From Buttiauxella selenatireducens (GTDB lineage: Bacteria; Pseudomonadota; Gammaproteobacteria; Enterobacterales; Enterobacteriaceae), in assembly GCF_031432975.1 (NCBI RefSeq), contig NZ_CP133838.1, forward strand, positions 1,736,001-1,800,000: 64,000 nucleotides of DNA. Reading direction: 5' to 3'. The position numbers and the translations under genes are program-made. The notes under the pieces were generated by a model. That model was not told the DNA's origin, did no database searches, and was given only the letters and a program-made list of their open reading frames with translations. Shown piece after piece: positions 11,606 to 45,840 of the stretch. Each line of letters starts with the position of its first letter. The stretch's first letter is position 1.

Positions 11606-11645
11606 CAGTACACTGGTAGCTGTTGAGCCAGGGGCGGTAGCATGG
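11606..11645 (+). promoter_or_regulatory. JUMPstart element with ops (RfaH recruitment)
   Basis: The segment reads close to the 39-bp JUMPstart consensus: CAGTA-CACTGGTAGCTG, then GAGCCAGGGGCGGTAGC. The ops core GGCGGTAG is at 11633-11640, followed by CATGG instead of the more usual CGTGC. In E. coli and Salmonella, ops pauses RNA polymerase and loads RfaH, which allows long surface-polysaccharide operons to be read through. It lies 115 bases upstream of rmlB in the transcribed leader. Confidence 0.88.
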
Positions 11646-11760
11646 CTATAGCAAAATTTCATATTTCTTAATTTTATTCCTCATTACCTGAAGTAAAATC
11701 ATACATCCGATAATTATTTATCGAGAAAAAATTTTACGAGATTATAGAGAGATTTTACCC

Positions 11761-12846
11761 GTGAAAATTCTTGTTACTGGTGGCGCTGGTTTTATAGGTT
11801 CAGCGGTCGTTCGTCATATCATAAATAACACCCAAGACAGCGTCGTTAACGTCGACAAATTAACCTATGCAGGTAATCTTGAATCGTTGGCCGACGTCTC
11901 TGAAAATGGTCGTTATGCCTTTGTTCAGGCAGATATCTGCGACAGAAATGCAATGGACGCAATTTTTGCAGAACATCAGCCGGATGCCGTTATGCATTTG
12001 GCTGCTGAAAGTCACGTTGACCGTTCAATCTCTGGTCCTGCTGAATTTATCGAAACCAATATCGTTGGTACTTATACACTGCTTGAAGCAGCTCGCGCTT
12101 ATTGGTCGCAAATGAATGATGAACGCAAGGCAACTTTCCGTTTCCATCATATTTCTACTGACGAAGTTTACGGTGATTTGCCGCATCCGGATGAATGCTC
12201 GGCAGGGGAGGTCCTTCCTCTATTTACCGAAACAACGTCTTATGCACCAAGTAGCCCTTATTCAGCGTCAAAAGCTTCGAGCGATCATTTAGTTCGCGCC
12301 TGGCAGCGGACTTATGGTCTTCCTTGCATCGTAACTAATTGCTCGAATAACTATGGGCCGTATCACTTCCCGGAAAAGTTAATTCCATTGGTTATTTTGA
12401 ACGCGCTTGAAGGTAAGAATCTGCCTGTTTACGGGAAAGGCGACCAGATTCGTGACTGGTTATACGTTGAAGATCACGCTCGAGCACTGTATACCGTGGT
12501 GACTCAAGGCACATTGGGTGAGACTTACAACATCGGTGGTCATAATGAGAAGAAAAACCTTGATGTGGTGCTGACTATTTGTGATCTGCTGGATGAGTTA
12601 GTTCCTAAGAATACCTCATATCGTGAGCAAATTACTTATGTTGCTGACCGTCCTGGTCACGATCGCCGTTATGCTATTGATGCCAGCAAAATAAGCCATG
12701 ATTTGAACTGGAAACCGCAAGAAACTTTCGAAAGTGGAATTCGTAAAACGGTTGAATGGTATCTAACCCATCAACAATGGGTCGATAATATTAAAAGCGG
12801 CACCTATAAATCATGGATTGAGAAAAATTACGGTGAACGTAAATGA
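11761..12846 (+). CDS. rmlB: dTDP-glucose 4,6-dehydratase
   Basis: This enzyme converts dTDP-glucose to dTDP-4-keto-6-deoxyglucose, step two of dTDP-L-rhamnose synthesis. The 361-residue extended-SDR protein has the NAD-binding GGAGFIGS at residues 7-14, the catalytic TDE at 133-135 and YxxxK (Tyr167, Lys171). It is very close to Salmonella and E. coli RmlB. It is the first gene after the JUMPstart leader. The start codon is GTG at 11761. Its ATGA end overlaps rmlD. Confidence 0.95.
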
Positions 12847-13745
12847 TTATTTTATTGTTCGGTAAAACAGGGCAGGTAGGTTGGGAATTACAACGTTCAC
12901 TGGCGCCACTTGGGAATGTCATCGCAGTCGATGTCCATTCGACTGAATACTGTGGTGATTTCAGTAATCCAGAAGGGGTTGCTGAAACAGTACGACGCGT
13001 GAAACCAGATGTGATCGTGAATGCGGCAGCGCATACCGCAGTCGATAAAGCAGAAAGTGAGCGTGATTTTGCGCAACTGCTCAATGCGACAAGTGTGGAA
13101 GCGATTGCAAAAGAAGCAGAAAAAATTAATGCCTGGCTTGTCCACTACTCCACAGATTATGTATTCCCAGGCGATGGTGAAAAACCTTGGGTCGAGTCTG
13201 ATGCCACTGCGCCATTAAATATCTATGGTGAAACGAAGCTTGCTGGTGAAATTGCTGTGCAGCAGCATTGTAAAAAACACCTCATTTTTCGCACGAGTTG
13301 GGTATTTGCTGGTAAAGGTAATAACTTCGCAAAAACAATGTTGCGCCTGGCTAAAGAACGCGAAGAACTTTCTATTATTAGCGATCAATTTGGTGCGCCG
13401 ACAGGTGCCGAGCTATTAGCAGATTGCACGGCGCACGCTATTGCGACCGCAATGCGTAAACCGGACGTAGCCGGGCTGTATCATTTGGTGGCATCAGGAA
13501 CAACAACCTGGTTTGATTATGCCAATCTGGTATTTGCTGAAGCTGAAAAAGCAGGTTTGGTATTAGCGGTAAATAAAACGAATCCGGTACCGACGACAGC
13601 ATATCCGACACCTGCCCGACGTCCTCATAACTCGCGGCTTGATACCCGTAAATTCCAGCAGACTTTTGGTTTAACCTTACCTGCATGGGATGTGGGCGTT
13701 AAACGAATGCTCGCTGAGATTTTTGCTGCAGCAAATGCTCAATAA
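12843..13745 (+). CDS. rmlD: dTDP-4-dehydrorhamnose reductase
   Basis: This is the last step of dTDP-L-rhamnose synthesis, an NADPH-dependent reduction of dTDP-4-dehydrorhamnose. It has 300 residues with GKTGQVG at 7-13 and YGETK (Tyr128, Lys132), and reads much like Salmonella RfbD over the full length. Its substrate is made by RmlC, whose gene is not found in this cluster, so the reductase would depend on an epimerase encoded elsewhere. The start overlaps the rmlB stop by four bases. Confidence 0.94.
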
Positions 13746-13801
13746 ATAAGATTAATCAGTGGCCTCGATGCAGGGCGCTTCAATAAATTGGAATATAAAA
13801 T

Positions 13802-14674
13802 ATGACTTCACGTAAAGGGATTATTCTTGCAGGTGGTTCTGGTACTCGTTTGTATCCGGTAACCATGGCTGTCAGCAAACAGTTACTACCTATTTATGAC
13901 AAGCCTATGATTTATTATCCGTTGAGCACACTGATGCTGGCGGGTATTCGTGATATTTTAATTATTAGTACCCCGCAAGATACTCCACGCTTTGAACAAT
14001 TGCTTGGCGATGGTTCGCAATGGGGTATCAACTTGCAATATAAAGTTCAGGAAAGTCCTGATGGTTTGGCTCAGGCCTTCATCATCGGTGAAGAGTTTAT
14101 TGGTAATGATGATTGTGCTTTGGTACTGGGCGATAACATCTTCTACGGCCATGATCTTCAGAAGCAGCTCGAAAATGCTGTAGCTAAAGAATCCGGAGCA
14201 ACGGTATTTGCATACCATGTACATGACCCTGAACGTTATGGTGTCGTTGAATTCGATAAAGCCGGTAAAGCTATTTCTCTTGAAGAAAAACCTCTTGAAC
14301 CGAAAAGTAATTACGCGGTTACTGGCCTATATTTCTACGATAACAGTGTTGTCGAAATGGCGAAAACCCTTAAGCCTTCACCACGTGGTGAATTAGAAAT
14401 TACTGATATCAACCGTATCTATATGGAACAGGGTCGTATGTCTGTTGCCATGATGGGGCGCGGTTATGCATGGTTGGATACTGGTACACATCAGAGTTTA
14501 ATTGAAGCAAGTAATTTCATTCAGACTATTGAGTTACGCCAGGGGTTGAAGGTTGCATGCCCTGAAGAGATTGCATTCCGTAAAGGCTTTATTGATGCGG
14601 AGCAGGTTAAGAAATTGGCGGCACCATTAATTAAGAATGATTATGGGCAGTATTTGCTGAAGATGATTAAATAA
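13802..14674 (+). CDS. rmlA: Glucose-1-phosphate thymidylyltransferase
   Basis: It makes dTDP-glucose from glucose-1-phosphate and dTTP, the first step to dTDP-rhamnose. The product has 290 residues (family about 290-293) with GGSGTRLYP at 11-19, [16 protein letters not shown] and the [10 protein letters not shown] segment. It lies 56 bases after rmlD. In most enterobacterial clusters rmlC follows immediately; here a 307-base AT-rich non-coding gap follows instead. Confidence 0.95.
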
Positions 14675-14681
14675 AACTAAG

Positions 14682-14732
14682 TTGCCGGTAAGATGTACAT
14701 CTTATATTTATAACGAATAAACTTACCGGCAA
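14682..14732. repeat. 11-bp inverted repeat downstream of rmlA
   Basis: TTGCCGGTAAG at 14682-14692 is perfectly complementary to CTTACCGGCAA at 14722-14732, with a 29-base AT-rich loop. It could be a long-loop terminator or a remnant of the junction where the cluster was reassembled. It sits exactly where rmlC would normally begin. Confidence 0.55.
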
Positions 14733-14981
14733 GAAAATTTCTTTGCTAACTTAACTTTTAGATGTCTTGTTGATTTTTATTTTTAAGGTTTTTTATTCGT
14801 GCCCTTATTGATTTTATTTTACACAAATATTTTTTAAAAGTATATGCTGCGATTTTCGGTTTTTTAGGTTTTTATTTTGAGTTGAATGTTATTATTTTAT
14901 TTTTTAAGTGCGTCATGTTAAATCCATTAAATCCATAAAATCTATTTATACTTTTATTTTACAATTACATTTAGGCTAAAA
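14733..14981. other. AT-rich gene-free gap between rmlA and wzx
   Basis: This stretch is strongly AT-rich with several T-runs and no coding frame. No trace of an rmlC reading frame was seen in it. It marks the compositional border between the rml genes and the AT-rich variable block. Confidence 0.5.
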
Positions 14982-16241
14982 ATGAGTCTTATTAAAAATA
15001 GCGTCTGGAATTTGGCCGGATATGTTATACCTACTGCAATAGCAATACCTGCACTAGGATACTTGGCAAGAGTATTAGGATTGGAGTTATTTGGAATTTA
15101 TACTTTAGCTATTGCTATTGTTGGTTATGCCGGTATTTTTGATGTGGGTTTAACAAGAGCTATAGTAAGGGAGATTGCATTATTTAGAGATGAGCCAGAC
15201 GAAAGAAAACTCATTATTTCAACGTCTACGATTTTTATCCTCCTGTTTGGTTCTTTGGGAATGCTTGTTATATATATGTTCATCCCAAACATTGTCCATA
15301 TGTTAAACATTTCCAGCTTGCATATTCATGAAGTAGAGATTTCTCTTAAAATTCTGGTATTCTCTATCCCTTTATTTCTTCTGAACCAGCTTTGGATGTC
15401 GATTCTGGAAGGGGATGAAAAATTCTCCATACTAAATATACAAAGGAGTATTGGTAGTTCAGTAATCGCAGGGCTTCCGGCACTATTTGTATGGTTAGAA
15501 CATAGCTTAGTATATGCGATAATAGGTTTACTAGTTGGGAGAGGAATTTCATTTATTATTTCATTTGTCATAGTGAGAGGGGAAATTATAAGTGCAAAAC
15601 TGCGGTTTAATCCTTCCACGTTTAAAAGGCTTATATTTTTTGGTGGTTGGATTACTGTGAGCAATATTATTAGCCCAGTAATGGTTTATTTTGATAGGTT
15701 CGTAATATCAAATTTGTTGGGGGCGAAATTTGTAAGTTACTACACTGCGCCATCCGAGGCCGTGTCTCGTTTAGGCTTGATCCCTGGAGCCTTATCCAGA
15801 GCTGTTTATCCCCGATTAAGCAATACTACTAATAAAGATGAATTCCGCAAGCAATTGAAGTTCTCCTATAAATTAATGATGCTAGGTTGTTTACCTATTG
15901 TTATTTTTGGAATTGTATTTTCCAAAAACATTCTTGGTATCTGGATGGGGCAGGAATATGCAATTCACTCGTATTACATTTTATGTATATTACTTATAGG
16001 CTTCTTTTTTAATTCAATTGCACAAATTCCATTTACCGCAATACAGTCTGTAGGAAAGGCGAAAGTAACTGCATTGCTGCATTGTATAGAAATAATTCCA
16101 TATCTGTGTGTGTTATATTATTTTGTCAAATGGTATGGGATTACTGGTGCAGCTTATGCATGGTGCCTCCGTGTTGTACTGGATTGCTTATTTTTAGTAT
16201 TGATCTCAAATGTGTATACCAATAGGCACCGAGGGATATAA
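14982..16241 (+). CDS. wzx: O-antigen repeat-unit flippase Wzx
   Basis: This 419-residue polytopic membrane protein has about 12 hydrophobic segments. It starts MSLIKNSVWNLAGYVIPTAI, a typical opening for Wzx of the MOP superfamily, and carries GLELFGIYTLA-like N-terminal and FDRFVISNLLG mid-protein segments. It is expected to flip the undecaprenyl-linked O-unit across the inner membrane. Codon use is strongly AT-rich compared with the flanking genes, usual for horizontally exchanged O-antigen genes. It overlaps the next gene by one base (TAATG). Confidence 0.88.
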   Translation: MSLIKNSVWNLAGYVIPTAIAIPALGYLARVLGLELFGIYTLAIAIVGYAGIFDVGLTRAIVREIALFRDEPDERKLIISTSTIFILLFGSLGMLVIYMFIPNIVHMLNISSLHIHEVEISLKILVFSIPLFLLNQLWMSILEGDEKFSILNIQRSIGSSVIAGLPALFVWLEHSLVYAIIGLLVGRGISFIISFVIVRGEIISAKLRFNPSTFKRLIFFGGWITVSNIISPVMVYFDRFVISNLLGAKFVSYYTAPSEAVSRLGLIPGALSRAVYPRLSNTTNKDEFRKQLKFSYKLMMLGCLPIVIFGIVFSKNILGIWMGQEYAIHSYYILCILLIGFFFNSIAQIPFTAIQSVGKAKVTALLHCIEIIPYLCVLYYFVKWYGITGAAYAWCLRVVLDCLFLVLISNVYTNRHRGI

Positions 16242-17227
16242 TGAATTATGATGTGGTTTTAGCGTCTTATAATGGTGCTAGTTATATTGTTGAACAACTG
16301 GATAGCATTGCACAGCAAACATTTTTACCATATAGCGTAATAATCAGAGACGATGGCTCAACTGATAATACGGTGGAAATTATTGAAGCGTATATAACAA
16401 CATCACATTTAAATATAAAAATAATTAAAGATGGGGTAAATGTTGGTTATATAAAAAACTTTGAAGTTTTAATCCAGCAGTGTACGTCCGAAATGGTTTT
16501 TTTCAGTGACCAAGATGATATTTGGGATAAACATAAAGCTGAAGTTATATGTAATAAATTTAAAGATAATCCAAATGCAAATGCCATTTTTACTGATGCG
16601 TATCTGATCAATAACTCCAAAACTATTATTGGGGAGTTATGGGAGCATGTCAACTTCAAACCTTTTGAACAAGCGTTGTCTTTAGAAAGAATCTTAGCTG
16701 CTAATGTTGTAACAGGGGCAACTTTAGCTACTAGAAGAGATTTTCTGATTAGGTTAATACCGTTTCCTAAACTCGTTCCACATGATTATTGGATTGCTAC
16801 CAATGCTGTTATTTGTAATAGCCTTAATTACTGTGAAGATAAGTTAATTTTATACAGACAACATGATAATAATCAAATTGGAGCTAAAAGAACCAATATT
16901 ATACAAAAGGTAAAGAACGCGATAAATTTAGCGAAACTAACTCGACGGTTGGAACATTATAGACAATCAGACGAGTTACTTAACAACTTGCTTTCAAGAA
17001 ATATTATAAATGCTAACAGTAGTGTAATTAAAAATCATATACATTACCTTCATCTTATGGATATTATTTACTCTGGAAGAATAAGTAACAGTGATTTAGT
17101 AGAAACAAAAAATCTTTTTTATGTTTTTACTAATGTTGATTATTTAAGAAATAAAAAATTAAAAATATTTTTAACTGATTTATTAGATGCAATATTGTTG
17201 CGCACATTTTATAAACAAAAATATTAA
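16241..17227 (+). CDS. O-antigen GT2 glycosyltransferase 1
   Basis: This GT-A fold, family 2 glycosyltransferase has 328 residues. The N-terminus reads MNYDVVLASYNGASYIVEQL, the nucleotide-binding DDGSTD lies at residues 37-42, and the metal site FFSDQDDIWDK near residue 90-100 is the DxDD variant common in rhamnosyltransferase-like enzymes. No membrane segment is obvious. Because only dTDP-rhamnose genes are present, transfer of rhamnose is a reasonable guess, but donor and linkage cannot be read from the sequence. Very AT-rich. Confidence 0.82.
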   Translation: MNYDVVLASYNGASYIVEQLDSIAQQTFLPYSVIIRDDGSTDNTVEIIEAYITTSHLNIKIIKDGVNVGYIKNFEVLIQQCTSEMVFFSDQDDIWDKHKAEVICNKFKDNPNANAIFTDAYLINNSKTIIGELWEHVNFKPFEQALSLERILAANVVTGATLATRRDFLIRLIPFPKLVPHDYWIATNAVICNSLNYCEDKLILYRQHDNNQIGAKRTNIIQKVKNAINLAKLTRRLEHYRQSDELLNNLLSRNIINANSSVIKNHIHYLHLMDIIYSGRISNSDLVETKNLFYVFTNVDYLRNKKLKIFLTDLLDAILLRTFYKQKY

Positions 17228-17276
17228 ATAATGTTGAATGATATTTATCTGGAAAATAAGAGAATTAAATTTATCA

Positions 17277-18173
17277 ATGAAAAATCCAAGTAACAATCTA
17301 TGCGCAATTATAGTTACATATAATCCTTCAGTAGAGCACGTGATAGGATTAGCAAGTAATCTTCGTGAACAAAACAGTGATGTTTTAATTGTAGATAACA
17401 GCCCCTCAATTAACGAGTTACTAGCAAATCATAACGTTTTTAATTATATTTGGTTGGGAGGAAATAAAGGTATTGCTGCAGCACAAAATGTTGGAATTAA
17501 AAAATGTTTAGATGAACATTATGAATACCTTATTTTCTTTGATCAAGATAGTAAAATTAGCAGTCATTTTATCAGTTCATTATCAAACCCAATGATCGAT
17601 AACCAATATCAAGTATGTGCTCCTGTATTTTTTGATGAAACAAGAGGTTTCGAATATGCGATTACCGATATCAGAAAAAATGGGAAACGTGTGAAACTTT
17701 ACTCTAAAAATTCTACTGAACCTTTTACCTCATCAGTTGTTATTTCATCTGGTACTTTGGTTAGAAAAGATGTGTTTAATACAGTCGGTCTAATGGATGA
17801 AGGTTTATTTATCGATTATGTTGATACCGAATGGTGCCTTAGATGTTTTGATAAAGGCATACTAGTTTATATCATCCCTCAGGCAAAAATGCTCCATTCA
17901 ATTGGTGATCGTTCCTTTGATATTTTTGGATTTTGTGTGCCTGTTCATTCCGCTGTTCGTCGGTATTATAGAGTGCGAAACTCCATTCATCTTTTAAAAT
18001 ATCCACATGTGCCAAAATTGCTTGCGGCAAGAGAAATTGTTTTTAGTTTTATACACTCGATGATACTGGTGATTAAACAACCAGACAAAAAAAGTTATTT
18101 AAAATCATTCCTTACAGCCTTAATAGATGGTGTTAGGGGCGTCAGAGGCGAAAACCCGCGAACACATCGATAA
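17277..18173 (+). CDS. O-antigen GT2 glycosyltransferase 2, rhamnosyltransferase-like
   Basis: This family 2 glycosyltransferase of the RfbN/WbbL-like rhamnosyltransferase group has about 298 residues from the ATG at 17277. An earlier in-frame ATG at 17238 has no ribosome site and adds 13 residues outside the domain. Features: IIVTYNPS near the start, GGNKGIAAAQNVGI, FFDQDS around residue 88, and DEGLFIDYVDTEWCLR, where the FIDYVDTEW block is characteristic of rhamnosyltransferases. It lies between two other GT2 genes in the Wzx-Wzy block. Confidence 0.82.
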   Translation: MKNPSNNLCAIIVTYNPSVEHVIGLASNLREQNSDVLIVDNSPSINELLANHNVFNYIWLGGNKGIAAAQNVGIKKCLDEHYEYLIFFDQDSKISSHFISSLSNPMIDNQYQVCAPVFFDETRGFEYAITDIRKNGKRVKLYSKNSTEPFTSSVVISSGTLVRKDVFNTVGLMDEGLFIDYVDTEWCLRCFDKGILVYIIPQAKMLHSIGDRSFDIFGFCVPVHSAVRRYYRVRNSIHLLKYPHVPKLLAAREIVFSFIHSMILVIKQPDKKSYLKSFLTALIDGVRGVRGENPRTHR

Positions 18174-18218
18174 ATAAAAATATATGTGTTACTGAATTTT
18201 ATATTTGAGAATCAATTA

Positions 18219-19109
18219 ATGGAAAGAGTAGCAATATTGCTTGCGGTATATAATGGTCGTCAATGGATTGATGAGCAACTCCAATCAATCTTAGAGCAAA
18301 AAAATGTAGGCTTAGATGTCTATATTAGTGTTGATCTTTCAGATGATGGGTCTTACGAACATTTAGTAACTACATATTCACATTTGCCAAATATTCATAT
18401 TTTAGACTATGGAAAAAGATATGGATCTGCAGGAAGTAATTTTTATCGTTTAGTACTTGATTCTCCTATCGATAAGTATGATTACGTGTCTTTTTGTGAT
18501 CAAGATGATGTCTGGTTTGATAATAAAATTCAGCGTGCTATTAAAATGATCGAACAAAAGCACGTTGATGCTTACTCTGGCAATGTTGTTGCCTTTTGGG
18601 AAAATGGTAAAGAATGTTTAATAAGTAAGTCTCAACCACAGGTTGAGTATGATTTTCTTTTTGAAGCAGCCGGGCCTGGATGCACCTATGTATTCAAACG
18701 TTCTTTGGCATGTGATTTCAAACAATTTCTTTTAAATTCGACCGATGCGGTTAATGTTGCCCTGCACGATTGGTTATTATATTCATTTTCACGGGTCAAT
18801 AATTATACATGGTATATTGATGATGTACCTTTTATGAAGTATAGGCAGCATGCTAGCAATCAAGTCGGTGCAAACAATAGTATCAAGGCTGGTTTTAAAA
18901 GGCTAAAACTAGCTAAGTGTGGTTGGTATAAAAACGAAGTCAATAAACTATGTGTAGTCTTAAAATTTGAAAATGATCCTATTGTAGATATGATTAAAAG
19001 AAATGATTTTAAACGCACGCTTCTAATGTTGTTGAATATTACAAAGTTTAGACGACGTTTTCGCGATAGATTGATGTTGGCAGTTTTTATATTATTGCGA
19101 TGGGTGTAA
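18219..19109 (+). CDS. O-antigen GT2 glycosyltransferase 3
   Basis: A third family 2 enzyme, 296 residues from the ATG at 18219 (MERVAILLAVYNG). This start is preferred to 18186 because it places the domain at the N-terminus and has TTGAGA upstream. Signatures: DDGS at 42-45, FCDQDDVWFDNK near residue 100 and YRQHASNQVGAN near the C-terminal part, all shared with glycosyltransferase 1. The two may be distant paralogues. Donor and acceptor are unknown. Confidence 0.82.
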   Translation: MERVAILLAVYNGRQWIDEQLQSILEQKNVGLDVYISVDLSDDGSYEHLVTTYSHLPNIHILDYGKRYGSAGSNFYRLVLDSPIDKYDYVSFCDQDDVWFDNKIQRAIKMIEQKHVDAYSGNVVAFWENGKECLISKSQPQVEYDFLFEAAGPGCTYVFKRSLACDFKQFLLNSTDAVNVALHDWLLYSFSRVNNYTWYIDDVPFMKYRQHASNQVGANNSIKAGFKRLKLAKCGWYKNEVNKLCVVLKFENDPIVDMIKRNDFKRTLLMLLNITKFRRRFRDRLMLAVFILLRWV

Positions 19110-19190
19110 TTGCTTTAGCAAACAATCATCTATATGCAATGTTTTAATTCCTGCACCATAAATGAATAATTTAAAAGCCTTGAAAACATC

Positions 19191-20348
19191 ATGATTAATC
19201 TAAATAAAATATTATTATTTCTTTTGACTTTCGAAATTATTTTTGGTGGCGGTGGAAGAATGTTTGAGCCTCTGGGGATATTTCCAGTTAGGTATTTATT
19301 ATTTGCACTTGCTTTAGCGCTCTTTGTTTTTAACGTTATAACTAAACTTTCTAAAACAACTCCTCGCAATTTATTTCTGGTGAGCTCAGTTCTGTTTCTT
19401 CCATTATATGGCGTTATAGTTGGGGTCATGGTAGGTAATAGTTTAACTGATATTTTGTTCGATCTACAACCCTACATATACACCCTTGTTATATTATTTT
19501 TATGCTTTAATGATATGTCAATCAGAAAATATGCATTATATATTTTTCTAAAGACAACAAAATATTACGCGATAATTGCTTCTTGTGTGTATATTGCATA
19601 CATAATTTTATTACGCGTTGGGGTTATCAATTTCGGGTATGTTTACAGTATACTTTCAACCTCAAGTGAGTTTTTCTTTAGGCCGGGTGGTGCGTTTTTT
19701 GCAAAATCTTTCTTTTTCATTGGTGTTGGTGCAATAATTTTTTTCTCCGAGAAGAAAAATTATTTGTTCTTACTGTGCATGATGGCTCTTTTCTTAACTG
19801 AAACAAGGGGAGTTTTCCTTTTTACAGGGGTTGCGGCTTTAATTGTTAGTTGCAGAATTAATAGTTTTATTAAAAATTTTTCTTTGGTTTCAATTGCTAT
19901 AATAGCATGTGTTGCGCTTCTAATAATTGTTGGAGGAAGGGCTGGGGATTCAGACTCTGTTCGATTGAATGACTTTTATTATATAGTGAAGGGTATGACT
20001 TCGACTTCTTTAATCTTCGGAGAAGGGTTTGGTTCTGCTATTCTAGGAAGAGGCAGGATAGAAGTGGTTCCTTTGGAATTACTTTACAAAACAGGTGCAA
20101 TTGGTATCTTTTTGTCTATGCTCCCATTATTAGTTGTAATCTATAAAGGCATAGTTAAATCTTCAAGAATTGAAGACTTACAGGTATCCTGCATTCTTAT
20201 TTTTGCTGCAGGGGTATCTCTGACAAATCCTTTCCTTTATACCCCTATGGGTATTTACATTATTGGTATAGCTATACTAAGCCTTGAAGTTTATCGTCCG
20301 GTTGCTAATTTTAATAAAAATAATCTAACAATCTCGGATAATAGATGA
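19191..20348 (+). CDS. wzy: O-antigen polymerase Wzy
   Basis: This 385-residue protein is almost entirely membrane-spanning (about 10-11 segments), with a long periplasmic-loop-like region around residues 250-300 (GDSDSVRLNDFYYIVKGM, then FGEGFGS). That layout and the TETRGVFLF segment fit O-antigen ligase/polymerase family proteins. It is expected to polymerise O-units in the periplasm. Sequence conservation among Wzy proteins is very low, so the call relies on topology, position next to wzx and lack of any other candidate. Confidence 0.82.
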   Translation: MINLNKILLFLLTFEIIFGGGGRMFEPLGIFPVRYLLFALALALFVFNVITKLSKTTPRNLFLVSSVLFLPLYGVIVGVMVGNSLTDILFDLQPYIYTLVILFLCFNDMSIRKYALYIFLKTTKYYAIIASCVYIAYIILLRVGVINFGYVYSILSTSSEFFFRPGGAFFAKSFFFIGVGAIIFFSEKKNYLFLLCMMALFLTETRGVFLFTGVAALIVSCRINSFIKNFSLVSIAIIACVALLIIVGGRAGDSDSVRLNDFYYIVKGMTSTSLIFGEGFGSAILGRGRIEVVPLELLYKTGAIGIFLSMLPLLVVIYKGIVKSSRIEDLQVSCILIFAAGVSLTNPFLYTPMGIYIIGIAILSLEVYRPVANFNKNNLTISDNR

Positions 20349-31459: not shown

Positions 31460-32377
31460 ATGAAACCACTGCTGGATGTGCTGATAATTCTCGATACCCT
31501 CGATAAAGAAGGGAGCTTTGCTGCGGCGGCAACAAAGCTCTTTAAAACCCCTTCCGCGCTCAGTTACACCGTGCAAAAACTCGAAAACGATCTCAATATC
31601 CAGATCCTCGATCGCTCAGGTCATCGTGCGCGATTTACGCGAACGGGTCAGCTTCTTCTGGAAAAAGGTCGGGAAGTGCTGCATACCGTACGCGAACTTG
31701 AACAACAAGCCATCAAGCTTCATCAGGGATGGGAGAACGAACTGGTAATCGGGGTGGACGATTCATTTCCTTTTTCACTGCTGACACCTCTCATCGAAGC
31801 GTTCTATAAAAGTTACAGCGTGACACGGCTGAAATTCATCAATGGCGTGTTGGGTGGTTCATGGGAAGCGCTTACCGAAGGGCGAGCAGATATTATTGTT
31901 GGTGCAATGAGCGACCCGCCATCCATCAGTGGCTTCGGGTTTACCTTGCTCGGCCAGCTTGAAAGCGTGTTTGTCGTCGCCCCGCACCACCCGCTGGCTG
32001 ACGCCGAAGAGCCGTTGAATCGTCGCGTGATAAAACGCAGTCGTGCAGTCATCGTGGGGGATACTTCCCGCCTTGAACCGTCACGTTCAATGCATTTACT
32101 CGAAGATCAAGATGCTATCACGGTCTTTGACTTCAAAACCAAGCTCGAATTACAGATAAGCGGCATCGGATGCGGCTACGTTCCCCGTTACATGGCGCAG
32201 CGTTTTATTGAAAGTGGAGTGCTGGTCGAAAAACAAGTCATTTCCCATGTGCCGTTTGTCCCAGTGTGGATTGGCTGGAACGAACAAACGGCAGGCCTTG
32301 CCAGCGAGTGGTGGCGGGAGCAAATTACCACGAATAGCGCCATTTCACGCATTTATGCGCAGGAAATGGGTCGTTAA
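31460..32377 (+). CDS. yeeY: LysR-family transcriptional regulator YeeY
   Basis: The 305-residue protein has an N-terminal winged helix (residues about 5-62: LDKEGSFAAAATKLFKTPSA, then QKLENDLNIQILDR) and a LysR substrate-binding domain. E. coli YeeY is an uncharacterised LysR protein at the same locus. Its target and inducer are unknown. It starts 38 bases after yeeZ. The downstream neighbour in E. coli is plaP, but here an AT-rich island intervenes. Confidence 0.9.
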   Translation: MKPLLDVLIILDTLDKEGSFAAAATKLFKTPSALSYTVQKLENDLNIQILDRSGHRARFTRTGQLLLEKGREVLHTVRELEQQAIKLHQGWENELVIGVDDSFPFSLLTPLIEAFYKSYSVTRLKFINGVLGGSWEALTEGRADIIVGAMSDPPSISGFGFTLLGQLESVFVVAPHHPLADAEEPLNRRVIKRSRAVIVGDTSRLEPSRSMHLLEDQDAITVFDFKTKLELQISGIGCGYVPRYMAQRFIESGVLVEKQVISHVPFVPVWIGWNEQTAGLASEWWREQITTNSAISRIYAQEMGR

Positions 32378-32513
32378 GAATATTCTCAACTGGAGGATAT
32401 TTAGGTTATAAATATCATTCAGAATAATAATTGAAAGCGATTTTTAAAAGGATGCGATAGAATTCACAACTCAAATTGGATACTTTTAATTATTTGAATA
32501 AGGTGTTGGGAAC

Positions 32514-33479
32514 TTGAAATTAATCATACAAATCCCCTGTTTTAATGAAGCAGAAACACTGGCCATAGCGCTCAATGCGTTACCAAGGCATGTTGAAGGA
32601 TTCGACGTGGTTGAATGGCTCGTTATTGATGATGGTAGTACTGACGACACCATTAGTGTAGCCAAACAGAACGGTGTGGACCATATCGTCAAGCACACTG
32701 GCAATAAAGGACTAGCTAAGGCCTTTATGACAGGACTTGATGCTTGTTTAAGTCTTGATGCTGATGTCATTATTAACACGGATGCTGACAATCAATATTG
32801 CGCTGAAGATATTCCGTTATTAGTGGCACCAATACTGGAGCATCGGGCAGAGATGGTGATTGGCGAGCGTCCGATAGCTGCTATCGAGCACTTTTCACCA
32901 ATAAAAAAATGCCTGCAAAAATTGGGAAGTTGGGTTGTTCGTGTTGCAAGTAAAACAGATATTCCTGATGCACCAAGTGGTTTTAGAGCGATGTCCAGAG
33001 CTACCGCGCAGAAACTAATGGTGTTCAATGACTATACATATACATTAGAAACGATCATTCAGGCAGGCCAAAAAAATATAACCATTACATCGGTTCCTGT
33101 TCGTGTTAATGAAGATTTACGTCCCTCGCGCTTAGTGAAAAGTATTTCGTCGTACATCAAAAGAAGCATTGTTACTATTGTTCGTATTTTTGTCATATAT
33201 CGTCCGTTCCGATTTTTTGGAGCAATAGGCGCAGTATTGTTTTTTGCGGGTTTTTTGCTGGGTGTTCGTTTTCTTTATAAATATCTTACCGGTGATGGTA
33301 ATGGTTATATCCAATCCTTAATTTTAGCGTCTGTGCTAATGGGGATGGGATTTCAAACACTATTAATAGCATTTGTTACTGATTTGCTCTCAGCTAATAG
33401 AAAGTTACTTGAAGATTTGCGATTCAAGGTGGCACAAATAAATACCGATCCGATTAAAAAAAGTGATCAAAATAAATAG
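32514..33479 (+). CDS. DPM/GtrB-like GT2 glycosyltransferase with C-terminal membrane helices
   Basis: This 321-residue protein starts at TTG 32514, preceded by AAGGTG at good spacing; no ATG is available near the domain start. The N-terminal 220 residues form a family 2 domain of the dolichyl-phosphate-mannose-synthase type: QIPCFNEAETL, DDGSTDDT at 39-46, DADNQ at 90-94, PSGFRAMSR. Two hydrophobic helices follow at about 230-252 and 265-290, as in GtrB and ArnC-like enzymes that charge undecaprenyl phosphate with one sugar. It is the first gene of the AT-rich island and is probably co-transcribed with the next three. Confidence 0.82.
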   Translation: MKLIIQIPCFNEAETLAIALNALPRHVEGFDVVEWLVIDDGSTDDTISVAKQNGVDHIVKHTGNKGLAKAFMTGLDACLSLDADVIINTDADNQYCAEDIPLLVAPILEHRAEMVIGERPIAAIEHFSPIKKCLQKLGSWVVRVASKTDIPDAPSGFRAMSRATAQKLMVFNDYTYTLETIIQAGQKNITITSVPVRVNEDLRPSRLVKSISSYIKRSIVTIVRIFVIYRPFRFFGAIGAVLFFAGFLLGVRFLYKYLTGDGNGYIQSLILASVLMGMGFQTLLIAFVTDLLSANRKLLEDLRFKVAQINTDPIKKSDQNK

Positions 33480-33502
33480 CTTTATATTTCTTTGAGGTAT
33501 GT

Positions 33503-34150
33503 ATGAGTTTTAAAGTTTCTGGTGGTAAAGTAGAGGATGGGGTTGTATTTGGAAATACGTTCGATAAATACGGATCCAAAAATCCTATTGTAAGATGGAT
33601 GATGAGTGGGTTCGATTCCTCGCTTGAAAAATTTGTTGCCCAAGCCAATCCTAAAACCATTCATGAAGTTGGGTGTGGTGAGGGTTTTTGGGTTAATAAA
33701 TGGAATGAGAATGGCCTAAAAGCCGTTGGTAGTGATTTTTCACATGATGTAATATCAATTGCTAAAGAAAATGCGCTAAGTAAAAAGCTAACACCAGAAG
33801 TTTTTAATATTAAAAGCATTTATGATCTAACGCCAGAAACCGATAGTGCTGATTTGATTGTATGTTGTGAAGTTATGGAACATCTGGAAGATCCAGAAAG
33901 GGCCATGAAAATCTTGCAGAGTCTGGTCGATAAATATCTTATTATCAGTGTTCCACGTGAACCTGTGTGGTGCGCGCTCAATATGGCTCGGGGAAAGTAT
34001 ATAAAGGATTTTGGTAATACACCGGGGCATATACAACATTGGTCAAAAAAATCCTTTGTAAAATTTACCGAAAAATATTTCAAAATAATTGAAGTAACGT
34101 CGCCATTTCCGTGGACTATGTTGTTATGTGTGCCTTATGAAAAAAATTAA
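33503..34150 (+). CDS. Class I SAM-dependent methyltransferase
   Basis: The 215-residue protein has motif I HEVGCGEGFW near residue 54, an acidic motif II (VGSDFS) and DLIVCCEVMEHLEDPE, the post-motif of Methyltransf_11/23-type enzymes. No membrane segment is present. In this setting a sugar or lipid-linked glycan is the likely substrate, but UbiG-like proteins act on many small molecules, so this remains inference. The end overlaps the next gene by 14 bases. Confidence 0.8.
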   Translation: MSFKVSGGKVEDGVVFGNTFDKYGSKNPIVRWMMSGFDSSLEKFVAQANPKTIHEVGCGEGFWVNKWNENGLKAVGSDFSHDVISIAKENALSKKLTPEVFNIKSIYDLTPETDSADLIVCCEVMEHLEDPERAMKILQSLVDKYLIISVPREPVWCALNMARGKYIKDFGNTPGHIQHWSKKSFVKFTEKYFKIIEVTSPFPWTMLLCVPYEKN

Positions 34151-35009
34151 CCTACGGAAATGGCTTAATTACTTAGGGAGCATAATCGCACTATTAAGTA
34201 TAGTATTTGTTGCGCATAGAATAACCAAATATTGGGCGCAGATTCCCGATGGTACTTTTACATTAAAATTATTTTTAATAATTATATTGTTGGCAGGTGC
34301 TTATGGTGCAGCCAATTTTATTCTTGCTGCAGCATGGAAAATATTAATGGTTGGTTTGCATCAACACATTAGTCATCGTGTTGCAACAAGGATTTACGGC
34401 ATGACACAATTGGCTAAGTACGTGCCGGGTAACATTTTTCAATTTGCAGGTAGACAGTTACTTACAATGTCTTATGGTTTTTCAGGAAAAGCGATTGCCA
34501 AAAGTACTTTTCTTGAATTATTGCTTTTGATTATAACTGGGGCTATTTATATATTTTGGATGCTACCACTGTTATATCCTGGATTTAGTGTCGTTTATGG
34601 TCTTTCCCTATTTATAGTTACCATAGTCGGGCTTGTTTTAGGGCTTGAATGGCAAGGTAAGGGTAATTTAATTAAGGTTGTAATTAAATACCTTTTATTC
34701 TTATTTATATCTGGAGGGGTTTTCCTCTGCGTATTGTATTCGATTGTGGATAATTGGGTGGTGACACCTGTATTGATATTTCCTTTAATTGGTGCATACG
34801 TCATCTCATGGCTTGTAGGGCTAGTCACACCTGGCTCTCCAGCTGGTGTAGGTGTCAGAGAGTTTTTACTGATATTATTTTTGAAGCCATTATTCACTGA
34901 GGTTGATATTATTATGGCTGTCGTATTAGGTCGAGTGGTAACAATTATTGGTGACTGCTTTTTCTACTTATATTCATTCTCGTTAAGACAAGATGATTAT
35001 TATGAATAA
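34137..35009 (+). CDS. UPF0104 / lysylphosphatidylglycerol synthase TM-like membrane protein
   Basis: About 290 residues with around eight membrane segments. LVGLVTPGSPAGVGVREFLL near the C-terminal part is the P-G-x-x-G-x-R/E block typical of UPF0104/LPG_synthase_TM (AglD-like) proteins, often found beside lipid-linked glycosyltransferases. It may move or present a lipid-linked sugar, a role filled by GtrA in gtr operons. The ATG at 34137 lies inside the end of the methyltransferase gene, implying coupling. Confidence 0.72.
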   Translation: MKKINLRKWLNYLGSIIALLSIVFVAHRITKYWAQIPDGTFTLKLFLIIILLAGAYGAANFILAAAWKILMVGLHQHISHRVATRIYGMTQLAKYVPGNIFQFAGRQLLTMSYGFSGKAIAKSTFLELLLLIITGAIYIFWMLPLLYPGFSVVYGLSLFIVTIVGLVLGLEWQGKGNLIKVVIKYLLFLFISGGVFLCVLYSIVDNWVVTPVLIFPLIGAYVISWLVGLVTPGSPAGVGVREFLLILFLKPLFTEVDIIMAVVLGRVVTIIGDCFFYLYSFSLRQDDYYE

Positions 35010-36765
35010 ACAAAATTCAGGTGTTGTTTTTGTTACGGTTTTTCTTTCGTTGTTTTTTCTTGTGTTAGCAATAGGATATGCACATTCATATAATCCAGGG
35101 TTCTTTCCCGATGAATTTGCTCATATGGGATATGTGGTTGATGTTATTAAAAATAAATTTCCAGATTATAATAATGGTCTTGTTTTTTCAAGTAATAAAC
35201 TAAACTACCTTAATCATCCTGCACTGTATTATGTGATTGTTGGCGAACTGGCTAGTCTTTTACATTTACAAGATATGTATGCAAATGTAGGGCGATATGT
35301 GAATATGATTATTTCTATTATAATAATTATACTTACATGCAGAATGTTATATGCAACCACTAAATCCATGTTGGCTACTTTTACTGGGGGCGCCTTTTTA
35401 TTGGTTATCCCAATGTTTGTAGTTTTAGGAAGCGCAATTAATAATGATCAAATTAATGTTCTTGGTTGCACGCTTGTAATCTATGGATTGCTAGGTTTGA
35501 TAGAGGTTGAAAGAAAAAATAAATCTTTGACTTCAAGTGTGATTATAATTTGCATTGGCGGAATTGTTGCTTCACTGAGCAAGGCGACTGGTTCTTTGGT
35601 CATCGTATGCTTGTTAGTGTCCGTTGCTCTATTCAATTTTTCCACTTTTATAAAAATAATAAAGAAAATATCGTTAAAAGAATGGTTGCTTATAATATTA
35701 TCAATTTTAATTATTATATTTTACTTTGCTTGTGTACATGCCATATATGATGATTTTTATCCAGCTCCACAAGGTAATCCTGCGCTGTGGTTTTTTATTG
35801 AGAATCCAAATGCAAAAAGACTAGATTTTTTAGAATTCTTGGTAAATTTCTTTAAATCTAACTTAGTTACTATTACTATACCTTATGGGCATGTTCCTAT
35901 TATTGATAGTGAAACTAGAATTGTTATCTTAAAATCTATTTTAATTATGTTAGGGGGCATGAGTAGCTATATACTGGCGATGAAGCTATCAAAAAATAAT
36001 ACTTTTTTCAATCTTGAGTTTTCTTTTATTATTGCTTTTGCCATTTATATTACTGTGTATGTTTTTACAATCAGACAGTTACATCTGAATACTGGGTATA
36101 TGGGAGCGATGCAGGCTAGGTATTTCTTTGGTTTTTTGCCCGTGTGTTCTTTAGTCATTGGTAAATTCATATGTTATGTCAATAGCAAAATATTTCAAAT
36201 AATAGTATTTATGTTGATGGTGTCAGGGTTGATAACTTCTATTTATCCAGCGCTGGTGAAATTTACTGACTTACGAATGTTGCAATCAACTATAATTATA
36301 GAGCAACCACTTTATAACACTAGCTATGGATATCTTACAAAAGGTCGTGGCTTTGAACAGGCAATTCTGGCTGAATCAAACTCCCTTAATGGGGTTGAAT
36401 TGATGCTGGCTACGTATGCACGAAATAATCATGGAGCATTGATTCTTGAACTACTTGATGGTTCTGGTGTGATAATTGCTAGTGATATAGTAAAAATGGA
36501 GACCATTAAGGATAATTCATATACATGGTTTGATTTTAATAATGTGAAGTTGAAAAAGAATCAGAAGTATCTATTAAGGTTGAAATGTAATGATTGCACT
36601 CAAAGTAATGCTATTACATGGTGGGCTGTGAAAAAGGAGGTTGAGTCGCATGTTTTTTTACTTACGAAGTTTGGGCCTGGCGCGGGGGATGCGTATTCCA
36701 AAGGTGAGGCATATGTAGACGGGGCTAAAATTGGTGGCGCATTTGCATTTCGCTTGTATTTTTAA
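34993..36765 (+). CDS. GT-C-like polytopic glycosyltransferase
   Basis: A 590-residue protein with about 10-12 membrane segments over the first 430 residues, then a soluble C-terminal domain of about 150 residues rich in beta-strand-like sequence. The first periplasmic loop contains FFPDEFAHMGY, with Asp40-Glu41 at the place of the catalytic acidic motif of GT-C/PMT-like (DUF2142-type) enzymes. It would transfer a sugar from a lipid carrier to a periplasmic acceptor. The start may be 34993 or the ATG at 35002. Very AT-rich; last gene of the island. Confidence 0.72.
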   Translation: MIIMNKQNSGVVFVTVFLSLFFLVLAIGYAHSYNPGFFPDEFAHMGYVVDVIKNKFPDYNNGLVFSSNKLNYLNHPALYYVIVGELASLLHLQDMYANVGRYVNMIISIIIIILTCRMLYATTKSMLATFTGGAFLLVIPMFVVLGSAINNDQINVLGCTLVIYGLLGLIEVERKNKSLTSSVIIICIGGIVASLSKATGSLVIVCLLVSVALFNFSTFIKIIKKISLKEWLLIILSILIIIFYFACVHAIYDDFYPAPQGNPALWFFIENPNAKRLDFLEFLVNFFKSNLVTITIPYGHVPIIDSETRIVILKSILIMLGGMSSYILAMKLSKNNTFFNLEFSFIIAFAIYITVYVFTIRQLHLNTGYMGAMQARYFFGFLPVCSLVIGKFICYVNSKIFQIIVFMLMVSGLITSIYPALVKFTDLRMLQSTIIIEQPLYNTSYGYLTKGRGFEQAILAESNSLNGVELMLATYARNNHGALILELLDGSGVIIASDIVKMETIKDNSYTWFDFNNVKLKKNQKYLLRLKCNDCTQSNAITWWAVKKEVESHVFLLTKFGPGAGDAYSKGEAYVDGAKIGGAFAFRLYF

Positions 36766-36977
36766 TTAATACGTTGGCGGGTTATTATTGTTAACCCGCT
36801 TTAGTATGTTCGAAATTTTACTGCATTAATAGTTGATATAGCGTCATTCTAGTCTAATCTTTAAATCTTGTCTCATCGTGTTTTTCTGAGCACTCAATGC
36901 TGCATCGCAGTCAATATAATTCACTTTCTTAAACAGCCTAAACTTTAAATCAAACTTTTTGTGCGCAAGGAGTCTGT

Positions 36978-38276
36978 ATGAAGCAAACCAATCAGCAATG
37001 GCAGTCACGGCGTGAGCAAGCAGTTCCGCATGGAGTCGGCAATGCGTTGCCGGTCTATATTGAGAAAGCGAAAAATGCGGAAATTTGGGACGTTGAAGGC
37101 AAGCGCTATATTGATTTCGCTTCTGGTATTGCGGTGCTGAATACCGGGCATAACCATCCCGCAGTGATTGACGCAGTGCGTCAACAGCTTGAACAATTTA
37201 CCCATCCTTGTTTCCAGGTCACGCCTTATGGGAATTATATCGAGCTTGCCGAACGGCTTAATCAACTGGTGCCGATTAGCGAGCCTTGTCAGACTTTGTT
37301 CCTGACAACGGGGGCGGAGGCGGTCGAAAATGCCATCAAAGTGGCACGTATTGCGACCGGGCGCTCGGCTATAATTGCGTTTCGTGGTGCGTTCCATGGT
37401 CGTACTCTGCTGGGCATGGCATTAACCGGTAAAGTTCAGCCCTATAAAAAAGGCTATGGCCCATTCCCGGCCGGAATTTATCACGCGCCTTATCCTGCGG
37501 CTTATCTCGGTGTGAGCGACACTCAGGCACTGGCGTCACTGGCGGGTATTTTTGCTGCGGATGTTTCTCCTGACGAAGTTGCCGCCATCATTATTGAACC
37601 GGTGCAGGGGGAAGGGGGCTTTTATGCGGCCTCAACGTCCTTTATGAAACAACTGCGCACCTTATGCGACAAGCATGGGATCGTATTGATTGCCGACGAA
37701 ATTCAAAGTGGTTTCTGCCGGACCGGTAAAACCTTTGCCATAGAACACAGCGGCGTGGAACCGGATCTCGTCACCATGGCGAAAAGCCTGGCCGGTGGCT
37801 TCCCGCTGTCTGCGCTAGTCGGCAAGAAATCACTGTTTGATAAAGCGATGCCGGGCGGTCTGGGCGGCACTTATGCCGGGTCGCCTGTGGCGATTGCGGC
37901 GGCGCTGGCGGTCACTGACATAATAGAGAAAGAAAATCTCAATCAACGCGCGCAGATCATTGGCGAGCAAATCACCCATCGTTTACAGAAAATGGCAGAG
38001 CAATTTGACTGCATTGGCGATGTGCGTGGATACGGCGCGATGATTGCGATGGAGCTGGTCGAAGAGCGTGACAGCCATCGTCCGAATAAAGAATTAACTC
38101 AGGCACTTGTCAAAGAAGCAGGCAAGCAGGGGTTGGTTTTATTGTCCTGTGGGGTGCGTGCGAATGTGATTCGTTTTCTTGTCCCATTAACAGCTGAAAA
38201 AGAAATTGTTAATGAGGGCCTCAACATCTTGTCTTCTTGCCTCGAATTAGTGCAAAATACGCGCCTCACTAAATGA
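36978..38276 (+). CDS. 4-aminobutyrate aminotransferase (GabT/PuuE family)
   Basis: This class III PLP aminotransferase has 432 residues. It shows TTGAEAVENAIKVAR, FHGRTLLGMALTGKV, EPVQGEGGFYA, IADEIQSGFCRTG, the PLP lysine in MAKSLAGGFPLS, and GGLGGTYAGSP. It resembles both GabT and PuuE about equally, so no symbol is assigned. It converts GABA and 2-oxoglutarate to succinate semialdehyde and glutamate. Being next to the putrescine importer PlaP suggests a role in putrescine-derived GABA use. AAGGAG precedes the ATG. This gene is not at this locus in E. coli. Confidence 0.85.
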   Translation: MKQTNQQWQSRREQAVPHGVGNALPVYIEKAKNAEIWDVEGKRYIDFASGIAVLNTGHNHPAVIDAVRQQLEQFTHPCFQVTPYGNYIELAERLNQLVPISEPCQTLFLTTGAEAVENAIKVARIATGRSAIIAFRGAFHGRTLLGMALTGKVQPYKKGYGPFPAGIYHAPYPAAYLGVSDTQALASLAGIFAADVSPDEVAAIIIEPVQGEGGFYAASTSFMKQLRTLCDKHGIVLIADEIQSGFCRTGKTFAIEHSGVEPDLVTMAKSLAGGFPLSALVGKKSLFDKAMPGGLGGTYAGSPVAIAAALAVTDIIEKENLNQRAQIIGEQITHRLQKMAEQFDCIGDVRGYGAMIAMELVEERDSHRPNKELTQALVKEAGKQGLVLLSCGVRANVIRFLVPLTAEKEIVNEGLNILSSCLELVQNTRLTK

Positions 38277-38284
38277 GAACAAAA

Positions 38285-38315
38285 AACCGACGTTAAACGC
38301 GTCGGTTATTTTTTT
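38285..38315 (+). terminator. Terminator after the aminotransferase gene
   Basis: AACCGACG at 38285-38292 pairs with CGTCGGTT at 38300-38307, followed by ATTTTTTTT. A plaP transcript therefore probably starts downstream. Confidence 0.85.
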
Positions 38316-38430
38316 GCATTAAGTTCAAGCAGTCAAACAGGCATCCGCCAAAAAAACCAAGAGGCCGGGCTTCGTACCGGATAGATACTAGCTTTTAAAA
38401 AACGACAGTCGTGTCGCCGAGGAAATTTAG

Positions 38431-45296: not shown

Positions 45297-45589
45297 GCGA
45301 GAAAGCGTGCGCTGCCCTCAATCTAGCCCTGAACCCACTCACCACAAGATGCTTGGCTGCATGCTACAGCTATCATGTTGGTCACTGACTTTCATCGTGA
45401 AATTCCTTTTATCTTCTTCAGACAGGGTTAAAAAATCAGTAAAAATTGTTATAGCGCAACATAGGATTTCTTATAGCTTTTACACTGTGTCCGCGTTTAT
45501 GTATTCATGCACATGATTTTTTAGTCATCATGTGCCAGGCCGGTAAATATATCCGGCACAAAATTGTATCGACAACTGACTCGTTTATG
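45297..45589. other. Gene-free upstream region of the cbi operon
   Basis: No supportable gene. An 8-bp hairpin lies at 45509-45516/45528-45535 (GCACATGA / TCATGTGC, 11-base loop), overlapping an alternative pairing of GTGCC (45532) with GGCAC (45555). The cbi promoter is expected here but no clear hexamer pair was identified. pocR and the pdu genes, which flank cbi in Salmonella, are not in this gap. Confidence 0.45.
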
Positions 45590-45840
45590 CCACGCGATTT
45601 ACCCAAATAATCCGTGGCTGGGAAGGGGGTGAAAATCCCCCGCAGCCCCCGCTGCTGTAATGCCGACGAACCCGCGTAACCACTGATCTGTTGATTGGGA
45701 AGGGCGGGTGAGAATGACGCTTAGCCAGAAGACCGACTAGTCAGATTTACCCGTCATCCTTCAATTTGCAGGTGTGTTAACCGCACCTCGAATTTTTGGG
45801 TATGACACTAAACAACTCCTTCGGTGGGAAGTCAGTTGTC
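45571..45840. repeat. 10-bp inverted repeat enclosing the riboswitch
   Basis: GACAACTGAC at 45571-45580 is the exact reverse complement of GTCAGTTGTC at 45831-45840, 250 bases apart, with the whole riboswitch core between. It could form a closing stem or a switch helix in the cbi leader RNA. Confidence 0.6.
45590..45770 (+). promoter_or_regulatory. Adenosylcobalamin riboswitch
   Basis: Characteristic blocks appear in order: GGGAAGGGGGTGAAAATCCC (45620-45639), then CGCAGCCCCCGCTGCTGTAA, GACGAACCC, CCACTG, GGGAAGG, and the B12 box AGCCAGAAGACC at 45723-45734. In Salmonella the equivalent leader represses cbiA expression when adenosylcobalamin is bound. The expression platform extends toward cbiA and contains a 10-bp stem at 45848-45857/45861-45870 (one GU pair). 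Confidence 0.95.

Follow-up and report, generated by a model that had tools for sequence, protein, structure and literature searches.

The closest described systems to the locus reported here are the three-component glycosylation systems and pathways that contain UPF0104 proteins. According to the available sections of the papers, three-component systems use flippases of the GtrA/SMR, Wzx or MATE type (PMC8035078, PMC11127046), and a flippase role is predicted for UPF0104 proteins in archaeal glycosylation and in the gpgSDF pathway (PMC5898192, PMC12713373). Here we analyze a window of 64,000 nucleotides, the whole stretch G000:C1:1736001-1800000 of the 5.22 Mb genome of Buttiauxella selenatireducens (genome label G000), which carries a four-gene block downstream of yeeY. 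The block encodes a family 2 glycosyltransferase (GT2), a methyltransferase, a UPF0104-like membrane protein and a GT-C-type membrane transferase. We consider it probable that this is a horizontally moved gtr-like three-component glycan-decoration cassette with an added methyltransferase, acting on the O-antigen. Among the matches listed from the open-licence literature, no paper places a methyltransferase and a UPF0104 protein together in a three-component system, which does not imply that none exists.

The cassette resembles the gtrABC O-antigen glucosylation systems of Shigella and Salmonella, a canonical copy of which is present at locus L079 of Buttiauxella brennerae, in having a GT2 loader, membrane proteins, a patchy presence and, as its most variable component, a final enzyme of the GT-C type. 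Unlike gtrABC, it has no GtrA and no GtrII-type transferase, carries an extra methyltransferase and a UPF0104-like flippase candidate, and has no phage carrier that we could find. The cassette does not qualify as a canonical gtrABC: neither GtrA nor the Gtr transferase family PF14264 gives a match. The pentofuranose three-component system of Citrobacter youngae O1/O2 (GT136), as presented in the available parts of its description, is similar in its non-GtrA flippase (a candidate in our cassette), in a donor-tailoring enzyme present in some versions (an epimerase there) and in a GT-C enzyme whose C-terminal domain is beta-rich (a carbohydrate-binding module there); its catalytic Asp close to the first membrane helix and its Arg-Tyr pair can be compared by eye with D40 and R376-Y377 of the cassette enzyme (PMC11127046). 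The same source describes a synthase based on phosphoribosyl pyrophosphate together with a MATE flippase, both encoded at the O-antigen locus, whereas our cassette has a GT2, a UPF0104-like protein and a methyltransferase and lies outside that locus. In the accessible text on gpgSDF of Pseudomonas aeruginosa, a glycosyltransferase, a sugar-modifying enzyme and a UPF0104 protein likewise form one predicted operon, but the glycosyltransferase is a GT4 acting on phosphatidylglycerol, the modifying enzyme is a deacetylase and there is no GT-C (PMC12713373). The archaeal AglD/UPF0104 case shares a UPF0104/COG0392 membrane domain combined with a lipid-sugar glycosyltransferase; it concerns N-glycosylation, is a prediction only, and the sections available mention no methyltransferase (PMC5898192).

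A four-gene block downstream of yeeY

The block and its surroundings comprise the following features.

32514-33479, forward strand: GT2 gene, 321 residues, TTG start, from the list of open reading frames (ORFs)
33503-34150, forward strand: methyltransferase gene, 215 residues, from the ORF list
34128-35009, forward strand: third gene, relative of UPF0104/LPG_synthase_TM (MprF flippase-domain) proteins, 293 residues, start at GTG 34128 or ATG 34137
34993-36765, forward strand: fourth gene, GT-C-type, 590 residues, start at ATG 34993 or 35002
36777..36802, forward strand: possible terminator hairpin 3' of the last gene, GCGGGTTA..TAACCCGC with a short T tail, read by eye
32326-36955, forward strand: whole inserted or exchanged block, 4630 bp, replacing about 165 bp of the empty site and taking in about the last 16 codons of yeeY
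36978-38276: aminotransferase gene between the block and plaP (name from ORF reading, without a search)

The four genes are separated, in order, by a gap of 23 bases, an overlap of 23 bases and an overlap of 17 bases. Their GC contents are 39.6, 36.6, 35.6 and 32.8%, against 51.2% in yeeY and 51.7% in the aminotransferase gene. The initial annotation had described an AT-rich, tightly packed set of four genes between yeeY and plaP, and this description holds, with the qualification that the aminotransferase gene separates the block from plaP. It had also placed yeeY directly beside plaP in Escherichia coli; the neighbors in strain NCTC9104 (hisG-hisL-yeeZ-yeeY-yoeI-plaP-tsuAB-sbcB) agree roughly, with yoeI standing between the two. 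In E. coli we found no near DNA match to the block and no distant DNA match to its first two genes.

The insertion is seen directly in the genus. All 12 Buttiauxella genomes have yeeY; the cassette follows it in two of them (G000 and B. brennerae, G007), and in the other ten, including G060 of the same species, yeeY is directly followed by the aminotransferase gene. All ten empty sites align up to window position 32325 and resume at 36956 or 36957, and the breakpoints of the B. brennerae copy (L006) coincide with those of the window against each of the three empty sites tried. The methyltransferase has no match in G060 or in the nine other cassette-free genomes of the genus. Compared with the host genes yeeY, hisG and the aminotransferase gene, which are ~96% identical in the window and G007, the cassette is much more divergent. 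Insertion by a transposon or a site-specific recombinase was considered and rejected: the block ends share no repeats of 8-14 bp, the window contains no tRNA and no integrase ORF was seen in the block. Allele exchange via homologous recombination seems likelier.

A phage or plasmid origin was considered gene by gene, and no close relative was found in the phage or viral collections. The GT-C gene has no match in phages, plasmids or viral contigs. The methyltransferase has one phage hit (26%) and three plasmid hits (27-32%), and none in viral contigs. No GT2 match was confirmed in viral contigs; 25 phage records contain distant GT2 matches, 24-28% identical in the 12 records listed. The third protein has no match in phages.

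The hairpin following the last gene has a visible counterpart in L006 and is absent from the list of our terminator scan. The promoter and terminator scans were no richer than shuffled sequences (22 vs 20.5 and 3 vs 3.0), and no reading rests on them. Elsewhere in the window, the Rfam small RNA STnc240 (38242-38317) overlaps the 3' end of the aminotransferase gene, and a cobalamin riboswitch (45564-45755) precedes a long series of forward-strand ORFs.

The encoded proteins

The first protein matches PF00535 (6e-20), the GtrB-like phrog_841 (2.5e-25) and the dolichol-phosphate-mannose synthase structure 5mlz in PDB (2.5e-10). Hydropathy indicates two C-terminal membrane helices at residues ~225-293. 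By these matches it classes as a polyprenyl-phosphate sugar synthase of the GtrB/DPM-like type. The second protein scores 58.5 bits with PF13489 (8.8e-16; cut-off 27), and its residues 55-61 read EVGCGEG, which we take to be the S-adenosylmethionine (SAM) motif of class I methyltransferases. The Pfam gathering score and the motif together assign it to the class I SAM-dependent methyltransferases.

The third protein reaches 25.9 bits with PF03706 (LPG_synthase_TM/UPF0104), below the cut-off of 33.4, and its homologue in Silvania, 73% identical, reaches 37.4 bits. We regard it as a putative MprF/UPF0104-like flippase of a lipid-linked sugar. Neither this protein nor the GT-C protein has a match among solved structures by sequence. 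A search of the entire G000 genome gave no match to GtrA (PF04138), and G060, G712 and G033 likewise have none; the same search recovers it in G007, G353, G137 and G175 (four of the eight genomes) and in 7 of 14 controls. The canonical gtrABC of B. brennerae (L079:3842-6623; GtrA, GtrB and a GtrII-type transferase with a PF14264 score of 92 bits) lies beside sbcB, apart from the cassette. A second short match to the start of sbcB at 3514-3594 makes it look as though that element integrated there.

The predicted model of the fourth protein has a membrane part (residues ~6-425) and a C-terminal beta-sandwich (~434-544). In the structural comparison the top 28 rows are all GT-C enzymes or complexes with a GT-C-fold subunit, ArnT, an enzyme of lipid A, being among the matches. 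The best structural match of the beta-sandwich is a carbohydrate-binding module. Pfam PMT is matched by two of eight GT-C homologues and exceeds the cut-off in one; PF14264 has no match in these eight homologues, and the same scan detects it in L079. The model thus classes the protein as a GT-C transferase, as first proposed from its sequence, with the reservation that the model is of low confidence. Of the DE motif noted in the first loop, D40 is present in all eight sequences, and E41 is not invariant, being replaced by G in G712.

The cassette in other genomes

A scan of named genomes found five loci: two in Leclercia, one in Silvania, and those of B. brennerae (G007) and an uncultured Enterobacterales bacterium (G033). 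All five keep the four reading frames open and the gene order unchanged. Searching with the methyltransferase yielded matches in 9 of 392 genomes of the family, 6 of 394 in an order sample and 5 of 293 in a class sample, at cut-offs of 1e-40, 1e-30 and 1e-28, respectively (the samples overlap). Together with three further named loci these represent 19 distinct methyltransferase loci. In tblastn searches with the window proteins, all 19 loci have a GT2 no more than 1.1 kb from the methyltransferase, and a relative of the third protein is almost always present too (17 of 19; the exceptions are G1042, where none was found, and G975, where one is seen by eye only). Most names of neighboring genes at these loci come from ORF reading without a search.

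Eight of the 19 loci carry the 590-residue GT-C type. Identities to the window for the GT2, methyltransferase, third and GT-C proteins are 90/83/71/65% in G007, 86/79/71/63% and 87/82/72/66% in the two Leclercia, 87/78/73/62% in Silvania, 86/81/72/62% in G712, 76/60/37/36% in G033 and 79/62/37/36% in G353. The loading enzyme is thus the most conserved component, and the transferase the least. The sites of the cassette differ: it lies between yeeY and the aminotransferase gene in the window and G007, its neighbors in Leclercia, G712 and Silvania are a regulator and ychF or a group of lac-like genes, and the remaining copies lie elsewhere. All relatives found with this GT-C keep the four genes as one group, as expected for the single module first suggested.

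The first three genes also pair with other membrane enzymes, so that the last enzyme is exchanged. G175, G246, G318 and G137 have two membrane proteins instead, of ~672-693 residues (starts unsettled) and 458-472 residues; G1042 carries a 749-residue protein, and G935 has a nearby relative of the 458-residue protein (28%). The window GT-C has no tblastn match at the loci with other final enzymes, and it is in this sense that they lack detectable similarity. A decayed copy of the core occurs in G313 (L046:4057-6522) near a gene read as UDP-glucose-dehydrogenase-like.

At four distant loci (L051, L052, L077 and L078, in G598, G650, G844 and G975), a GT2 (24-28% identical), a methyltransferase (34-38%) and, by tblastn, in three of the four, a relative of the third protein are likewise clustered with a large membrane protein, with identities of 23-38% overall. 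Here the last enzyme is a different one, with weak tetratricopeptide repeat matches, and pilin and pilus genes lie beside three of the four (G598, G650 and G975; ORF reading); the G844 membrane proteins resemble that of G650 in tblastn. The loci next to type IV pilin genes could possibly be pilin glycosylation systems.

The methyltransferase accompanies the GT2 irrespective of which final enzyme is present, and even at a locus with no recognized third gene, and it therefore probably belongs to the donor side. Linkage alone gives no substrate, and the Pfam and NCBIfam matches are generic, so that its target might instead be a nucleotide sugar, an intracellular glycan or something unrelated to the lipid-linked donor. 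We regard this as unlikely, while giving it more weight than any other alternative: apart from the linkage to the GT2, the block contains no nucleotide-sugar enzyme, and the methyltransferase has no membrane segment by hydropathy and is thus probably cytoplasmic. In G175 a second methyltransferase lies between the GT2 and the first one (L042:6222-6800), suggesting a doubly methylated sugar.

The O-antigen as candidate acceptor

The likely acceptor pathway is encoded in the same window, outside the block.

11606..20348, forward strand: O-antigen cluster (JUMPstart, rmlBDA, wzx, three GT2 genes and a putative wzy)

The names rest on Rfam for JUMPstart and on Pfam for wzx, the GT2 genes and the rmlA-type gene; rmlB, rmlD and wzy were read. 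No rmlC ORF was seen in the cluster (window 14674-14982), and one rmlC-type gene is present at G000:C1:619146-619667.

We compared the regions upstream of gnd in 13 genomes and the window, counting core proteins as shared if at least 40% identical across 60% of their length, with rml, galF and gnd excluded. The window, G007 and G712, all with the same GT-C type, have five of five O-antigen core proteins in common, and Silvania has two of the window's five. G353 shares one protein with each of six genomes, and G033 none. Three of the ten cassette-free Buttiauxella (G060, G006 and G009) share no core protein with the window. Among the genomes with other final enzymes, three of the four were compared (G318 was left out): G175, G137 and G246 share five or six core proteins with one another, in a cluster of another kind with ABC-transporter genes (read). 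The fetched stretches of all 11 carriers contain rml-like genes (rmlB only in Silvania, two only in G246), and that of G060 contains none. The Wzy was found in 5 of 392 family genomes and the GT-C in 4, with both in two (hypergeometric 8e-4), an association that is weak because the two co-carriers are of one genus; G712, outside this sample, also has both. Between the Leclercia genomes LEC4 and LEC7, the GT-C is 76% identical, against 59-60% between Leclercia and G712, with the GT2 at 90-94% in all three comparisons, a pattern that would fit a transferase tracking its acceptor. These associations point indirectly to the O-antigen as the likeliest acceptor.

The acceptor might instead be a conserved envelope glycan, namely the lipopolysaccharide core, lipid A or enterobacterial common antigen, to which the GT-C would transfer the lipid-linked sugar. 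The match to ArnT fits this possibility, as does Leclercia, where LEC4 and LEC7 have six of six O-antigen core proteins in common and, at the 40% cut-off, share none with the window, yet have GT-C enzymes 63-66% identical to that of the window. We nevertheless judge it improbable, since the cassette is patchy within the genus (2 of 12 genomes), three carriers of its GT-C type have one kind of O-antigen cluster, and the three genomes compared among the four with other final enzymes have another. More improbable still is that the GT-C is a PMT-kind protein O-glycosyltransferase and that the cassette glycosylates a secreted protein: GT-C folds are common to glycan- and protein-modifying enzymes, and the fold match is not decisive, while the block contains no candidate substrate gene and the co-variation is with the O-antigen. 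A gpgSDF-like pathway placing the sugar on phosphatidylglycerol or diacylglycerol rather than on undecaprenyl phosphate has a published three-part logic with a UPF0104 protein (available parts of PMC12713373), but is highly improbable given a first enzyme of the polyprenyl-phosphate GT2 type, not GT4, followed by a GT-C-type enzyme.

Several observations weigh against O-antigen decoration by a cassette of this kind. The GT-C of Leclercia, which has a different O-antigen, is about as close to the window enzyme (63-66%) as those of G007 and G712, whose O-antigen is the same (62-65%). Acceptor specificity is thus blurred, and a common feature, such as a rhamnose residue, would be needed to account for it. 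The rml genes also occur in two of the three cassette-free Buttiauxella examined (G006 and G009), three genomes with the same Wzy type have no methyltransferase match, and the O-antigen counts mix relatedness and function. The GT-C model has a mean pLDDT (predicted local distance difference test) of 54.8, with the loop containing D40 and H75 below 50, and its C-terminal domain also matches non-carbohydrate sandwiches, making it less clearly carbohydrate-binding. Only one of 15 third-protein homologues scanned exceeds the UPF0104 Pfam cut-off, and G1042 has no recognizable third gene beside its GT2-methyltransferase pair.

The proposal of a gtr-like module decorating a surface glycan is nonetheless supported by the GT-C fold match, low-confidence as the model is, and by the gene linkage in relatives. 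Both features anticipated by the initial annotation, another kind of flippase candidate and an extra methyltransferase, are present, in a genome with no GtrA match. For O-antigen decoration we infer the following order of steps. On the cytoplasmic side of the membrane, the GT2 would transfer a sugar to undecaprenyl phosphate from a nucleotide donor, and the methyltransferase would methylate the lipid-linked sugar (or its precursor). The MprF/UPF0104-like protein would then flip the methylated lipid-linked sugar to the periplasm, where the GT-C would add the sugar to a rhamnose-containing O-antigen, perhaps gripping the acceptor via its C-terminal domain. The outcome would most likely be an O-antigen bearing a methylated sugar.

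More tentatively, and with somewhat more doubt than confidence, we suggest that the GT2, the methyltransferase and the UPF0104-like protein may form a portable donor module, supplying a methylated undecaprenyl-phosphate sugar through an MprF-type flippase and plugged into at least three dissimilar final transferases that serve Wzx/Wzy O-antigens, ABC-exported O-antigens and, in distant relatives, type IV pilins. If the reading of the cassette is right, a donor-methylation step and a new type of flippase would join the three-component glycosylation systems, and the methyltransferase family would provide a sequence handle for finding such systems. It would also allow a test of whether undecaprenyl-phosphate sugars are flipped by MprF-like UPF0104 proteins, and would explain O-antigen variation that is encoded away from the O-antigen locus.

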